Source of the DNA: Pseudarthrobacter sp. IC2-21
GTDB lineage: Bacteria; Actinomycetota; Actinomycetes; Actinomycetales; Micrococcaceae
DNA length: 64,000 nucleotides
Direction: 5' to 3'
Assembly: GCF_034048115.1 (NCBI RefSeq)
Contig: NZ_CP139145.1
Coordinates: 3,472,001 to 3,536,000, forward strand
The first letter of the stretch is position 1. Each line of letters begins with the position of its first letter. The notes below the pieces were generated by a model. It had not been told where the DNA came from and did no database searches. It saw only the letters and a list, made by a program, of their open reading frames with translations. The position numbers were made by a program, and so were the translations under genes. Below, piece after piece: positions 4,189 through 35,309 of the stretch.

Positions 4189-5082
4189 TCAGGCAGCGCA
4201 GCCTTCCGGGCAGCGCAGCGTCTCCGGGCTGGCGGCACATTCGGAGCAGTACAGCGTGAGGGTGCGGCAGCTGAGGTTGGAGCAGTTCTCAAACTTGCTG
4301 GTGGGTGCGGCACAGCGGACGCATTGACCGATGGTCTTTGCCTCTTCGCTGAATTCCAGGTGCATGCGCTTGTCGAAAACATAGAGCGAGCCTTCCCAGA
4401 GGCCCTGGTCCTTGAAGGTTTCGCCGTAGCGGACAATGCCGCCGTCGAGCTGGTAGACCTGCTTGAAGCCGCGGTTCACCATCAGGCTGGAGAGCACCTC
4501 GCAGCGGATCCCGCCGGTGCAGTACGTGACTACGGGTTTGTCCTTCAGGGCGTCGTATTTGCCGGACTCGAGTTCCTTGATGAAGTCGTGCGTGGTGGCA
4601 ACGTCGGGGACGATTGCGTCCTTGAACTTCCCGATCTGGGCCTCGAAGGCGTTACGGCCGTCAAAGAACACCACGTCCTCCCCTGCCTGCTTCCTGGCGT
4701 CCACCAGCTCGTGCAGTTCCTCGGGCAACAGGCGTGTGCCGCCGCCCACCACCCCGTTGGCATCCACCTTGAGTTCGCCGAGAGCGCCGAAGGAGACGAT
4801 CTCGTCCCGGACCTTAACGCTCAGCCGCGGGAAGTCCTCCGCACCGCCGTCGGACCATTTCACGTCGATGCCGTGGAAACCCTTGTACTCCCGGGTGGTT
4901 TTGACGTACTGCTTGACCGCGCCGATCTCGCCGCCCACCGTGGCGTTGATGCCGTCCTTGGAGATCAGGATGCGTCCGGTCAGCCCCAGTTTCTCGCACA
5001 GCGCGCGTTGCCAGAGCCGCACCGCGTCCGGGTCGGTGATGGGGGTAAAGCCGTAAAAGAGCACAATTCTGTTCAGAGCCAC
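4189..5082 (-). CDS. trhO: tRNA uridine(34) hydroxylase (rhodanese-domain protein, YceA/TrhO family)
   Basis: Oxygen-dependent 5-hydroxylation of the wobble uridine in certain tRNAs is the known role of this family. The 297-residue protein has the N-terminal acylphosphatase-like domain ([18 protein letters not shown]), a central rhodanese domain with the active-site loop [12 protein letters not shown] near residue 190, and a C-terminal cysteine-rich segment ([14 protein letters not shown] followed by YCSECA) typical of the long forms. The start is the ATG at 5082. It is divergent from the GNAT gene at 5251 with 168 bp between them. Confidence 0.92.
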
Positions 5083-29672: not shown

Positions 29673-31487
29673 ATGGCCAAGCAAACCTCATTTTTCAGAT
29701 CCGTCAGCCGTCTCTATCCCCACGTTAGGCCGATCCTCCCCCGGCTGGTGCTGGGACTCCTCAGCGCCCTGCTGGCAAGCCTCGTGGCGCTCACCATCCC
29801 CCAGGTACTGCGCGTCCTGATCAACGAGTCGCTGAAGCCCGGCGGTGCCCGGAGCGCGGTGTGGACTGCCGCCGTCGTCATCCTGCTGCTCGGCATCGCC
29901 GAAGCCGTCCTGGTGGCGCTTCGGCGGCAGTTCGTGATCAACCCGGCCACCACCGTGGAAACCCGGATGCGGGTCTCGCTTTACGGGCACCTGCAGGAGC
30001 TCACGGTCTCCTTTCACGACCGGTGGGGCTCGGGCCAGCTGCTCTCCCGCGCCATGACGGACCTGAATTTCCTGCGCCGGTGGATGGCCTTTGGTGCCAT
30101 CATGCTGGTGGTCACCACCCTCACCGTGGTGATCGGCATTGTGGTGATGTTCTCCATGAGCTGGCAGCTGGCGCTGATTTTCATGGCCGCCGCGGTGCCC
30201 ATCATGGCCTACAGCTTCCGGTTCCGGACCCGCTTCAGCAAAGTGGCGCGCCGCAGCCAGGACCAGGCCGGCGACCTCGCCACCACCGTGGAGGAGTCCG
30301 TCCACGGCATCCGCGTTCTGAAGGCGTTTGGCCGCAGCCGCGAGGCCCTGGAGAACTTCAACGAGCAGGCCGAGGAACTCCGTCAGATTGAAATCGCCAA
30401 GGCCAAACACCAGGCCGCCTTCACCATGGTGGTCACACTGCTGCCGGAACTCGCACTGGGTGCCGGCCTGGTGGTCGGCGTGATGCTGTGCGCCGGCGGG
30501 CAGCTGAGTATCGGCGCCCTGGTGGCCTTCTTCGCCACTGCCGCGGTGGTGGCCACCCCGGTTGAGTTCTCGGGCATGCTGCTGGCCATGGCACTGACCG
30601 CCAAGACAGCCATTGACCGGCATTTCGAAGTGATGGATTCGGTCAACACCATCACCAGTCCCCCGTCCCCGCGCCACCCCGCGCATCTCAAAGGGGCCCT
30701 CAGCTTCAACAACGCCACGTTCGCTTTTGAGGACGCGCCGGACAAGCCCATCCTGCAGGACATCAACCTGGCCGTACGGCCGGGCGAAACCATGGCACTG
30801 GTAGGCATTACCGGCAGCGGCAAGAGCGCCTTGATCCAGTTGGTGCCGCGCCTGTACGACGTGACAGCCGGGTCCATCACCATCGACGGCGTGGACCTGC
30901 GCGAGTTCGACGTCGAGGACCTCCGGCGCGTCGTGGCCGTCGCGTTTGAGGACACCACACTGTTCTCCAGCTCGGTCCGGGACAACGTGCTCCTGGGGGC
31001 AACGGACCGGTCAGAGGAAGCCTTGGAGGAGGCGTTGGACGTGGCGCAGGCGCACTTCGCGTACTCGCTGCCGGACGGCGTGGACACCCTCATCGGCGAG
31101 GAGGGCCTGAGCCTGTCCGGCGGCCAGCGGCAACGGATCGCCCTGGCCCGGGCCATCGCGGCGCGGCCCCGGATACTGGTGCTGGATGACCCTCTCTCCG
31201 CCCTGGACGTGCATACCGAGGAGTTGGTGGAGACCCGGCTCCGCGCGGTCCTGAAGGACACCACCACCCTGATTGTGGCGCACCGTCCGTCCACCGTGGC
31301 GATGGCCGACCGGGTGGCGCTGCTCGAGGAAGGCCGGATCGCCGCCGTCGGAACCCACACCGACCTGCTGGCGCACAACCCCCATTACCGCTATGTCATC
31401 GCCAGCCTCGACCAGGAGCCCCGGGACCTGGATACGGAGCTGTCGGAGCTTGAGGACGCGGCAGGTGCTGAGGAAATGACCCGATGA
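29673..31487 (+). CDS. ABC exporter half-transporter with degenerate ATPase site
   Basis: A 604-residue type IV exporter half: six membrane helices in residues ~20-320, then the nucleotide-binding domain. Walker A is [12 protein letters not shown] (Lys ~384), signature [16 protein letters not shown], Walker [13 protein letters not shown]. The residue after the Walker B Asp (position ~506) is Asp instead of catalytic Glu, so its site is degenerate, as in TM287 of the TM287/288 heterodimer. The H-loop His is kept (IVAHRPSTV). The next gene encodes the partner, with an ATGA overlap. The substrate is unknown (lipid, drug or siderophore are typical). Confidence 0.93.
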
Positions 31488-33397
31488 GCAATGCAACCTT
31501 CGGCACCGCCAACGAGGACAACGCCTACCTCAGCAAGGCGGAAAGCAAAACCGTACGACGCCGGTCGCTCGCCTTGCTTGCCAAGCTGATCCGTCCGGTG
31601 CGGCTCAGGTTCTGGCTGACCATCGCCATGGTGGTCCTTTCCCAGGCCACGCGGGTGGCCGGCCCTGCGCTGATTGCCTTCGGCATCGACCATGCGCTGC
31701 CGGCCCTCCGCGCGGGTGACAATCTCCCGCTGGTGCTCACCGGCGTCGCGTACCTGCTCGCAGCGATCGCGACGGCGGGACTCACCTCCCTGTACGTCAC
31801 CTCCACCGCGCGGCTCAGCCAGGCCATGCTGCTGGACCTCCGGGTCCGGGTTTTCCGGCACACCCAGCGGCTGAGCCTGGAGTTCCACGAAAAGTACACG
31901 TCCGGCCGCATCATCGCCCGGCAGACCTCAGACTTGGAGGCCCTGCGCGAGCTGTTGGATTCCGGCGTCAGCTCGCTCGCTTCGGGCCTGCTGTTTATGG
32001 TGTTCACCGCCATCACGGTGTTTGTCCTGGACTGGCGCAGCGGGCTGATTGTGCTGGCTGCGGGCGTCCCCATGTTCTTCCTGGCGCGCTGGTACCAGAA
32101 GCATTCGCAGATCGCGTTCCGTGAATCACGTGTGGTGTCCGCCCGGCTGATTGTGCACTTTGTGGAAACCATGACCGGGATCCGTGCCGTGAAGGCGTTC
32201 CGCAAAGAGCGGGAGAACGCTGAGCAGTACGGGAAACTGTCCGAGGATTACCGGCGGGTCACAGTCCGCTCCATCAACCTCAACGGCATTTTCCAGCCCG
32301 GCCTGGTGCTGATCGGCAACGTCTGCGTGGCCGTGGTCCTGCTGTTCGGCGGGTTCCGGGTGTTGAGCGGGGACTTGGCGGTGGGCGTCCTGCTCGCGCT
32401 GATGCTGTCCACCAAACGCTTCTTCCAGCCCGTGGACCAGATGGCCATGTTCTACAACTCGTTCCAAAGCGCCCAGGCTGCCCTGGAAAAGGTGTCCGGG
32501 CTGCTGGAGGAGGTTCCCACGGTCCGGCCGCCCAAAAACGCGGTGGAACTCCCCCATGCCCGCGGCACGGTGGATTTCACGGGCGTGGAGTTCCGCTACG
32601 GCGACGGTCCGGTGGTCATTCCCACGATGGACCTGCACATTCCCGCCGGCCAGACCGTGGCCCTGGTGGGCCAGACCGGCGCCGGTAAATCGACCTTGGC
32701 CAAGCTGATCGCCCGCTTCTACGACGTCTCCGCCGGTTCCCTGACCCTGGACGGCGTAGACCTCCGCAGCCTCAGCACCACCGACCTGCGGCGGAACATC
32801 GTCATGGTCACGCAGGAGGCGTTCCTTTTCAGCGGTTCCGTGGCGGACAACATCGCCCTGGGCCGGCCGGACGCCTCCCGTGAAGAGATTGAGGACGCCG
32901 CCCGCGCCGTGGGCGCGCACGGGTTCATCACCCAGCTCCCCGAGGGCTACGACACTGACGTCAACAAGCGTGGCGGCCGCGTCTCCTCCGGCCAGCGGCA
33001 ACTGATCAGCTTCGCCCGGGCATTCCTCGCCCGGCCGGCGGTGCTGATCCTTGACGAGGCCACCTCCTCGCTGGATATCCCGTCCGAGCGTTTGGTGCAG
33101 CACGGCCTGGCGAGGCTGCTGCGCGGAACGTCCGACGGCGGCCCTGAGGCGGGTGCCCAGGGCGCCGGCGATGCGCCCGGAGGCGCCCGGGGCGGCCGCG
33201 ACAGGGGCGGCGCCGCGGCAGGTACCGGCCGGACGGCGCTGATCATCGCGCACCGGCTCTCCACGGTGGAGACCGCCGACCGGGTCCTGGTGGTCCATGA
33301 CGGCCGCATCGTGGAGGACGGCACGCCGGCGGATTTGATCGGCGGCGGTGGCCGATTCGCCGACCTCCATGGCGCCTGGAAGGACTCCCTTGTGTAG
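31484..33397 (+). CDS. ABC exporter half-transporter with consensus ATPase site
   Basis: A 637-residue partner. Six membrane helices, then Walker [13 protein letters not shown] (Lys ~402), signature [15 protein letters not shown] (SSGQ in place of LSGGQ), Walker [13 protein letters not shown] with catalytic Glu ~525. A Gly/Ala-rich insertion of about 35 residues (roughly 547-582, [17 protein letters not shown] onward) sits between the D-loop helix and the H-loop [11 protein letters not shown], which is unusual. It starts four bases inside the preceding gene. The two genes form one heterodimeric exporter. Confidence 0.93.
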
Positions 33398-33489: not shown

Positions 33490-33566
33490 CGGGATGTGGC
33501 GCAGCTTGGTAGCGCGCGTCGTTCGGGACGACGAGGTCGCAGGTTCAAATCCTGTCATCCCGACCA
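33490..33566 (+). tRNA. tRNA-Pro (anticodon CGG)
   Basis: A 77-nt cloverleaf: acceptor stem CGGGATG / CATCCCG, anticodon stem CGTCG / CGACG with loop TTCGGGA giving anticodon CGG (codon CCG), T-loop TTCAAAT, discriminator A and an encoded CCA (33564-33566). A strong terminator follows. It stands alone, not in a tRNA cluster. Confidence 0.96.
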
Positions 33567-33621: not shown

Positions 33622-33654
33622 AGAAAAAGCCCCGAAGCATGATGCTTCGGGGCT
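33622..33654 (-). terminator. Rho-independent terminator of the SGNWPNPM precursor gene
   Basis: 13-bp perfect arms AGCCCCGAAGCAT (33628-33640) and its complement (33642-33654) around one base. On the minus strand the stem is followed by TTTTTCTG. It lies about 22 bp past the stop of the precursor gene and isolates it from the tRNA. Confidence 0.93.
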
Positions 33655-33676: not shown

Positions 33677-33904
33677 TTACATCGGGTTGGGCCAGTTACC
33701 GCTGAGCGTGGTGTACGTGGTGTCGGTGGTCTTCTTGCCCTTTTCGACCTTCACCTTTTCGGACATTGGGTTCGGCCAGTTACCACTGGCAACAGCTGCA
33801 CCAGCGTTATCTGAAATGGAACCGGCGGACAGGACTGCTGGGGCGGCTGCGGAGAATGCCAGGGCGCCGGCCAGGACGGCGGCTGCCGCTATCTTCTTGA
33901 ACAT
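33677..33904 (-). CDS. Secreted peptide precursor with duplicated SGNWPNPM octapeptide
   Basis: A 75-residue protein: Lys-rich start (MFKK), a hydrophobic signal sequence to about residue 27 (AAAAVLAGALAFSAAAPAVL), then a short hydrophilic body. The octapeptide SGNWPNPM occurs at residues 40-47 and at 68-75, the very C-terminus, separated by a Lys/Thr-rich linker (SEKVKVEKGKKTTDTTYTT). The two copies use different codons for Ser, the first Pro and the last Pro, yet encode the same residues. The SD is GAGGA (GAGGAACTCAT-ATG). It has its own promoter and terminator and is divergent from an HTH-TPR regulator. No known family was recognised; I infer a signalling-peptide precursor. Confidence 0.85.
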   Translation of the reverse strand: MFKKIAAAAVLAGALAFSAAAPAVLSAGSISDNAGAAVASGNWPNPMSEKVKVEKGKKTTDTTYTTLSGNWPNPM

Positions 33905-33933
33905 ATGAGTTCCTCAATGCGAGTCGGATTCGT

Positions 33934-34013
33934 TACAAAGTCAGCACGTCCTTGTTGACACTTATTGTAAAATGGATCCCACAGGGCCTGTCAAGCTTTG
34001 CGTACAAAGACAG
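33934..34013. promoter_or_regulatory. Putative operators TACAAAGTCAG and TACAAAGACAG
   Basis: Two copies in the same orientation of TACAAAGWCAG, at 33934-33944 and 34003-34013, bracket the promoter of the peptide-precursor gene; the second also lies 22 bp ahead of the regulator's start codon. They are 69 bp apart. Candidate binding sites for the adjacent HTH-TPR protein; inference from repetition and position. Confidence 0.5.
33964..33994 (-). promoter_or_regulatory. Promoter of the peptide-precursor gene, 19-bp spacer
   Basis: On the minus strand: -35 TTGACA (33989-33994, consensus), 19-bp spacer, -10 TACAAT (33964-33969, one mismatch). The predicted start is near 33957, leaving a leader of about 50 nt. 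The long spacer suggests the promoter is weak without an activator. Confidence 0.6.
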
Positions 34014-34034
34014 TCTGCAATAAGGAGGAATCCC

Positions 34035-35309
34035 GTGGGTAACGGATTCGGGGAAAAGCTTCGAGCCGAGCGACTTGAGCGCGGGCTAACGCAAGCGGAA
34101 CTCGGCAAGAACCTCTATTCCCCCAGCTACATTTCACTCCTTGAGACTGGCCGCCGCGAGCCCACCGCTGAGGTAATCGACGAACTCGCCCGTCGTTTGG
34201 AACTGGCGCCCAAGGCCCTGGAGGCCTGGAGCCAGCCCATCACAGTCAGTGACGCGGAATATGTCCTGGCCGGCCTTTACGCTCGCCAGGCCTGGGACCT
34301 CCGCGACTACGAGCTCGCCGCCAGCCACGCGGCCACAGCTGCAAAGATTGCCCTCGAGGGGAAAAACACCAGTGCCTGGTGGAATATGACCTACATGCAG
34401 GCTGAGTGCCTGGTGCGGCACGGTGATCTTGTGGAGTGCCAGCGGATCACGGAGCGCCTTATCGAGCACCCAATGGCCCGCGAGTCAGTGGGCCTCGGGG
34501 TTCGCGCGCGGCAGATGCTTGCAGCTGTATTGCAGCGACAGGGCCAGTTGTCGGCTGCAGTAGACGAAGCTTTGGAAGCCATGAAGCTTTCCGAACAACT
34601 GCCTCCAAGTTCCACAATCATTACCGGCGCGTTGCGTGTCCTCATCGGCGCCTTGGCGGAAAGCGGTCGCCTAAACGAGGCCTGGACGTATTGCCAGTTG
34701 CTCGTCAAACAGGTTGATGAAACTACCAATGCGCAGCTTGCCGGCGAGGTGGCCTGGGTCGTGGGCAATGTGGCCTTCATGCGGCATGACTATGCAGAAG
34801 GCGTTAAGGAACACGAACGGGCGGCGAAGTTGCTGTCCCCCGCCAATGACATCGAAATGTGGGCCCGGTTCAATAAAGCGTCGGCAGCCGTACGGCTGCA
34901 GGCCGGCATCGTGGAGCCGGAGACTCTGGCCTCGATTGAGCGGGCAGAGCTTGCCTTTTCGATCGTCTACGAGATGAAAAGTGATGAACTCGAAGTCGCC
35001 TTCATCCGGGCACGGTGGCTCTATCTGACCGGCGACATCGTTGCCGCCATTAACAAACTGCGGGACATCCATGCCCAGCGCGAGGCCCTCGCCAAGCACA
35101 CGGCCGGCGAGGTTTCCCTGCTGTTGGGCAAATCACTCAAAGCGGCAGGCGAAGCCGACGAGGCCCTTGTGTACTTGCAGGAAGCACAAAAGGCGTTCAG
35201 CTCCGCCGGCGCCCAGGATCTGGTCCAGCAGTCCCTGGACGCGATCCTCGAAATCCGGCTGTCCCAAGAGCGCGCCGCTGCCACGGCGAAAAACAACAAG
35301 GCCAGCTAG
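34035..35309 (+). CDS. HTH regulator with TPR-like repeat domain (RRNPP-type architecture)
   Basis: A 424-residue protein. Residues ~4-60 are an Xre/HTH_3 domain: FGEKLRAERLERGLTQAELG, then KNLYSPSYISLLETGRREPT. The remaining ~360 residues are paired amphipathic helices of TPR type (for example AEYVLAGLYARQAWDLRDYE, LGVRARQMLAAVLQRQGQLS, AGEVAWVVGNVAFMRHDYAE, HTAGEVSLLLGKSLKAAGEA). This matches the PlcR/NprR/Rgg family of cytoplasmic peptide receptors. The start is GTG 34035, with GGAGG six bases upstream. It is divergent from the SGNWPNPM precursor gene, which makes that peptide the candidate ligand. Confidence 0.88.
   Translation: MGNGFGEKLRAERLERGLTQAELGKNLYSPSYISLLETGRREPTAEVIDELARRLELAPKALEAWSQPITVSDAEYVLAGLYARQAWDLRDYELAASHAATAAKIALEGKNTSAWWNMTYMQAECLVRHGDLVECQRITERLIEHPMARESVGLGVRARQMLAAVLQRQGQLSAAVDEALEAMKLSEQLPPSSTIITGALRVLIGALAESGRLNEAWTYCQLLVKQVDETTNAQLAGEVAWVVGNVAFMRHDYAEGVKEHERAAKLLSPANDIEMWARFNKASAAVRLQAGIVEPETLASIERAELAFSIVYEMKSDELEVAFIRARWLYLTGDIVAAINKLRDIHAQREALAKHTAGEVSLLLGKSLKAAGEADEALVYLQEAQKAFSSAGAQDLVQQSLDAILEIRLSQERAAATAKNNKAS

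Follow-up and report, generated by a model that had tools for sequence, protein, structure and literature searches.

Do two divergent genes in an Arthrobacter-type soil bacterium encode a peptide pheromone and its receptor? The genes lie in a 64,000-nucleotide stretch of Pseudarthrobacter sp. IC2-21 (the window; NZ_CP139145.1, positions 3,472,001 to 3,536,000). One encodes a small precursor with a repeated peptide, and the other a protein with a helix-turn-helix (HTH) domain and tetratricopeptide repeats (TPRs). An earlier note on this DNA had proposed an RRNPP-type system in Micrococcaceae. TPR-sensed peptide signalling has been described for relatives of Bacillus and Streptococcus, and the parts of PMC4748050 and PMC10075063 available to us place the sensing of re-imported peptides by TPR proteins in Bacillota and describe actinobacterial signals as mainly small molecules such as gamma-butyrolactones; according to the same part of PMC10075063, Actinomycetota usually signal through small molecules. 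The locus finding is real and larger than first described. The proposal gains support from conservation, adjacency, fold and a profile match to PlcR, and we consider it quite probable that the divergent precursor and the HTH-TPR protein are a peptide-pheromone pair working like PlcR-PapR, with a re-imported peptide. A signalling role is likely, judged from anatomy and conservation.

The gene pair, its conservation and its shared promoter

The precursor gene (33677..33904, minus strand) encodes 75 amino acids. A Lys-Lys start is followed by a hydrophobic Sec-type signal, MFKKIAAAAVLAGALAFSAAAPAVLSA, assigned by hydropathy, and then by two copies of SGNWPNPM. Copy 1 (33764..33787, minus) covers precursor residues 40-47, and copy 2 (33680..33703, minus) covers residues 68-75 and forms the exact C-terminus. 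The 424-residue HTH-TPR protein (34035..35309, plus), a predicted cytoplasmic peptide receptor and regulator on the basis of Pfam, homologues and a structural model, diverges from it across a gap of 130 bp (124-146 bp across 81 loci). The coordinates of this arrangement, as first described, were confirmed. The receptor starts at the GTG at 34035, preceded by AAGGAGG; a longer reading from the ATG at 33972 finds no support in the homologues, whose starts are MGNGFGEK or alike.

The N-terminal HTH and the TPR-like helices noted earlier were both recovered. The HTH domain (residues 1-66; 34035..34232, plus; Pfam and model) matched Pfam HTH_31 (E 2.4e-11) and HTH_3 (E 4.5e-11). The TPR superhelix (residues 71-391; 34245..35207, plus) was delimited by model and alignment, its Pfam matches being below cut-offs. 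The model consisted of the HTH and a superhelix of eight helical pairs, with a predicted local distance difference test score (pLDDT) of 90.9. Seven residues (W116, W241, N245, W276, N280, R325 and W328) were invariant in 64 aligned rows and lie on the first helices of pairs. The part of PMC10075063 available to us gives a five-point RRNPP signature: a propeptide of 10-100 amino acids, a Sec signal, a receptor of 250-500 amino acids, TPRs, and neighbours at -60 to 400 bp. The window pair shows all five (75 amino acids; Sec signal by hydropathy; 424 amino acids; TPRs by model; 130 bp).

We compared the locus with the best 80 of 121 relatives confirmed by a scan of a species-level genome collection. 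The receptors of this close set were 76-98% identical, the nearest named relative being Pseudarthrobacter sulfonivorans. A divergent small open reading frame (ORF) with repeated peptides was present at 80/80 close loci, and 31/31 additional loci from other genomes (L112-L140, L143 and L145) had a partner with GNWPDPM or GNWPDPA. Together with the window, the close set provided 81 precursors with 203 peptide copies, 1-4 each. G2, W4, P5 and P7 were invariant in 203/203 copies. N3 and D6 were each present in 198/203, with Asp, Asn or Tyr occurring at residue 6, and residue 8 was Met in 179, Ala in 18 and Val in 6. Since all GGN and CCN codons are used across the copies, it is the protein sequence that is kept and not the DNA. 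The last seven residues were the same among the copies of a precursor in 75/81, four of which are single-copy, so the informative figure is 71/77. A peptide copy formed the exact precursor end in 78/81, and Lys with a long hydrophobic stretch was found in all 81, so that the Sec-type assignment rests on hydropathy and conservation. The precursors of L008, L018 and L025 end after the first copy and are possibly frameshifted.

On the receptor tree, residue 8 changed at least five times, with three origins of Ala. No receptor column tracked all three Ala origins, and V195 and I202 tracked two of three. A homology search with the precursor retrieved 277 proteins at E<=1, and the names among the 120 listed were hypothetical, low-complexity or stray. 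A peptide-pattern scan gave any match in 30/396 genomes and two or more in 10/10 sampled genomes of the window's genus. The match at L146, a short one-copy ORF in a genome without the receptor, was taken as chance.

The region between the genes contains a conserved box, TTGACA-N3-ATTGTAA (33955..33970, plus), which is the predicted operator. It was found at 80/80 close loci and at 11/11 of the more distant loci L148-L158. A second arm, TGTCAA on the plus strand and TTGACA on the minus strand (33989..33994, minus), was found at an unchanged distance in 89 of 92 sequences. Read toward the precursor, the block is TTGACA-N19-TACAAT, in which the second arm is the predicted precursor -35 and the ATTGTA of the box, TACAAT on the minus strand, the predicted -10. 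Promoters with 19-bp spacing usually need an activator, as those of the MerR type do, and this -35/-10 pair would want one. A standard promoter scan, which accepts 16-18 bp spacers only, listed no site. Allowing one mismatch, a longer form of the box occurred exactly once per genome in 61/61 genomes of the genus, and the 20 sites fetched were all 74-90 bp upstream of the receptor. The regulator thus seems, in this genus, to own a private operator over its peptide gene.

We propose that the pair works as follows. The precursor would be exported through Sec, and extracellular proteases would release GNWPNPM-like peptides, several identical copies giving more signal per chain. An Opp-type permease may re-import the peptide; the window's genome encodes seven OppA-type proteins, none of them tied to the locus. 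Inside the cell, the peptide would lodge in the TPR superhelix groove, where the invariant Asn and Trp residues would probably contact it. Once loaded, the receptor would act via its HTH on the box between the genes, and the most likely effect is that the precursor promoter is switched on and the signal amplified.

Homologues in Micrococcaceae and other actinobacterial families

Receptor homologues were found in 144/295 Micrococcaceae genomes (E 1e-10 or better). We hand-chose 60 distant homologues (L148-L207) from the homologue listing for spread over genera. Nine of the 60 were chosen as HTH-less, and one of the nine (L202) turned out to be HTH-bearing. For 26 of the 60 (18 HTH-bearing, 8 HTH-less), a signal-bearing ORF that encodes a related peptide diverges from the receptor gene. 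At the HTH-bearing loci, the peptides were VGNWPDPx x4, VGNWPDAV x5, TGNWPN, PGIWPD, VGEWPH, and VGDWPH or VGNWPH x6-8; copy number reached 8. The precursors of some distant relatives exceeded 100 amino acids. The proposal that SGNWPNPM, or a trimmed form, is the signal needs correcting. The peptide is conserved throughout the 203 copies; the Micrococcaceae as a whole are better described by a core close to G-x-W-P-[DNHY] whose ends vary; VWIWPD, IDDWPH and GNWPA are exceptions. The last copy lies short of the C-terminus in many distant relatives, so release there would need cutting on both sides. The precursors of L148-L150 have four copies each, with S, A, T and F at residue 8, and the mature peptide there may end at the second Pro.

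Among the 52 HTH-bearing distant homologues, 11 had both box and peptide, none the box only, 7 the peptide only and 34 neither (Fisher 5e-7, kinship being ignored). The box was absent from HTH-less loci and from peptide-less loci; at L170, L175 and L177, ATTGTAA alone is left of it. In the neighbouring genus g10 (L135-L140, L143, L145), the nearest box match differed at 2-4 positions in 8/8 loci, mostly reading TTGACA-N3-xxxAGTAA. This genus keeps IGNWPDPM despite the changed box, with its AGTAA-like second half, and offers a natural setting for testing whether operator and HTH change together. A further arrangement was seen at L142, where a second ORF (about 4525-4735, minus) encodes IGNWPDPM x4 spaced by RGR, SGR and SGL, with no signal peptide. 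The regular pair is about 124 kb away, and the exact box was absent within the 10 kb examined.

The HTH-less proteins (L199-L201 and L203-L207) begin at a point corresponding to about residue 70 in the window receptor, and no HTH is seen upstream in frame; the four checked in Pfam had no HTH. All eight examined keep a peptide partner (IGWWPN, VGWWPH, TGIWPY or MGNWPH), at the exact C-terminus in 7/8, which suggests that the pairing goes with the TPR domain. The model of a related HTH-less protein, P0310, consisted of TPR helices alone (pLDDT 93.0). Generic TPR proteins were its best fold matches, and a Rap appeared at rank 43. Some genomes of the window's genus have an HTH-less paralogue besides the regular pair; the window's genome had a single match.

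Among 394 Actinomycetes genomes sampled, 32 matched the receptor profile at E 1e-15 and 102 matched a wider profile at E 1e-35. WP repeats beside relatives in other families included GGSWPT x3 (L212) and repeats of DIEWP, DIGWP or DISWP (L215, L216, L220). In several actinobacterial families, single signal-bearing peptides ending in Cys-Cys were encoded divergently from HTH-TPR genes (L258-L287, L288-L325). The class-wide set comprised 89 loci, the 29 strongest and 60 further of roughly 140 listed. A divergent signal-bearing ORF ended exactly in CC at 26/89 loci; 37/89 (23/29 of the strongest) had either a WP motif or CC no more than six residues from the end, and 52/89 had neither form. The other 67 signal-bearing ORFs of the same loci gave one CC end, two CC near the end and three WP, and CC-ending ORFs in the 140 Micrococcaceae loci numbered 1/644. 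The wider profile, A4, was built from 17 loci selected for a candidate peptide, 16 of which fall among the 29 strongest, so the fair count is that of the 73 loci outside the profile. Of these new loci, 19 had the exact CC end and 22 had a WP motif or CC close to the end. Examples are ...GIWCC and ...GMCC. Four loci end in CC and also carry WP (NWPKCC, NWPTMCC, DWPGMCC, QWPGMCC), which ties the two peptide dialects together. We lean toward the view that PlcR-like HTH-TPR receptors, with exported pheromones of their own, form a class that spans the actinobacteria and includes an HTH-less Rap-like branch. Its peptides would fall into two linked dialects: repeated G-x-W-P or x-x-W-P peptides, in Micrococcaceae and no fewer than two further families, and single Cys-Cys-ending peptides.

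Evidence for and against a pheromone-receptor pair

Two results weigh against reading the pair as pheromone and receptor. First, the box search in the 61 genus genomes gave no second target that would point to a regulon beyond the precursor. Second, no adjacent precursor was found for 34 of the 60 distant homologues. A narrower ORF filter gave no partner at 36 loci; simple filters had passed over L154 and L193 on ORF length or overlap, and both count as having partners. Of the 34 partnerless receptors, 17 have purC nearby, so these look like orthologues without a precursor. The claim that orthologues have a divergent precursor thus stands for the 80/80 close and 31/31 further loci and fails for the 17 purC-linked receptors of other genera.

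Distant precursors were sought in 10 genomes that have a receptor but no precursor beside it, together with G000, G406 and G600 (13 in total), using a pattern of two copies 12-42 bases apart, which misses the window's own widely spaced pair. One of the 10, G571, encodes a short ORF (L352/L368, C1 about 113770) that finishes with VGEWPH x3, has no signal peptide and lies ~330 kb from the partnerless receptor L178; receptor L170, 72% identical to L178, has a VGEWPH peptide next door. The same pattern search gave no convincing distant precursor in the nine other partnerless genomes, and the remaining matches in the 10 genomes were judged ordinary sequence from the letters alone.

The single box per genome, placed over the precursor and with no other target seen, is also what would be expected if the secreted peptide were the product itself (antimicrobial, surface or metal-binding) and the HTH-TPR protein a local regulator sensing something else. 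In line with this, overall column conservation of the receptor was not concentrated on the groove helices. However, the HTH-less TPR paralogues are unfit as ordinary local repressors and still keep a matching peptide (8/8), WP-type peptides stay beside the receptor family in other actinobacterial families, and inspection of the neighbouring window ORFs by eye recognised no modification enzyme or immunity gene. We regard this explanation as unlikely.

Import of the peptide being a proposed step, the peptide could also be a signal that a different receptor senses at the cell surface, with the HTH-TPR protein responding indirectly. Other Gram-positive peptide systems use membrane kinases. However, the same inspection by eye recognised no kinase next door, and the peptide accompanies the HTH-TPR gene: a strict motif, which leaves out the variant core VWIWPD of L158, was found beside the receptor at 105/140 loci and in 0/564 other signal-bearing ORFs of the same loci. 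Such an arrangement seems very improbable. A toxin-antitoxin-like pair of small hydrophobic toxin and HTH repressor, suggested by a short ORF with a hydrophobic stretch next to an Xre-type HTH gene, can practically be set aside, given a strictly conserved repeated peptide whose copy number changes (1-4; up to 8 in relatives) and which has no evident role in a pair of this kind, and HTH-less paralogues that do not fit. A pheromone and its cytoplasmic receptor account best for the pair.

Known peptide systems and the surroundings of the locus

The window pair is most like PlcR-PapR of the Bacillus cereus group, in which an HTH and TPR receptor also has a small exported precursor adjacent, and both profile and fold matched. 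The profile match to PlcR (2qfc) spanned the HTH and first TPRs (E 1.6e-4; 1e-14 with profile A4); it is suggestive of a relation and is not proof of descent, as generic TPR proteins score too. The fold match was to the PlcR peptide-DNA complex. The window pair differs in being actinobacterial, in the eight helical pairs of its model and in its divergent precursor with repeated identical G-x-W-P-core peptides. PlcR has a large regulon, whereas the box of the window type is recognisable once per genome.

The exported precursor also recalls Rap-Phr, and the HTH-less paralogues resemble Rap in having no DNA-binding domain. Rap phosphatases have no HTH and carry an N-terminal three-helix bundle, whereas the window receptor has an HTH and is not a Rap. 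In the available parts of the sources, single precursors with several identical pheromone copies, up to 8, are known (PMC11343458), and the main chain of the peptide is bound by Asn225 of RapJ, which is a conserved receptor residue (PMC3601965). Rgg-SHP and ComR-ComS share the HTH-TPR receptor and a small peptide gene nearby. Their peptide gene is sometimes divergent, and ComS pheromones contain Trp. The ComR matches listed were HTH-sized chains, so these matches speak to the HTH. SHP is taken to exit by PptAB and not Sec in the available part of PMC10075063. Two relatives have repeat peptides that lack a signal sequence, like the leaderless communication peptides of RopB (PMC10518010, available in part), but these are side cases and the main precursors have a signal. 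AimR-AimP arbitrium systems are phage-carried, whereas the window locus is chromosomal and does not belong to them; an IMG/VR scan and a search of 50,697 phage records yielded no relative. PrgX and AimR were not among the fold matches listed, which carries no weight either way.

GNWPDP, GNWPDPM, GNWPDPA and SGNWPNPM were not found in the searched literature, whose scope excluded bioRxiv and most subscription papers. Within the same scope, no RRNPP-type system in Actinobacteria appeared in the titles and abstract starts of the matches listed, and a word search of PMC9765709, PMC12700828 and PMC11343458 gave no occurrence of "actinobacteri" or "actinomycet". If the proposed reading is true, peptide quorum sensing in the phylum becomes directly testable, with one octapeptide, one receptor and one operator per genome in this genus. 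The natural variation at residue 8 (Met, Ala or Val) and residue 6 (Asp, Asn or Tyr) provides ready pherotype tests.

The precursor gene had been said to have its own terminator, and this held. An intrinsic terminator, a hairpin with a U-tract, lies at 33624..33653 (minus) by folding energy, with a minimum free energy of -33.2 kcal/mol over 62 nt and a z-score of -4.96; a consensus terminator scan did not list the hairpin at about 33653-33624. A tRNA-Pro gene is located at 33490-33566, and purC and purD, read from translations, lie on the far side of the receptor gene. Past the tRNA, two exporter-type ABC-transporter genes (29673-33397) were also read from translations, and the second one is kept in 80/80 close loci.
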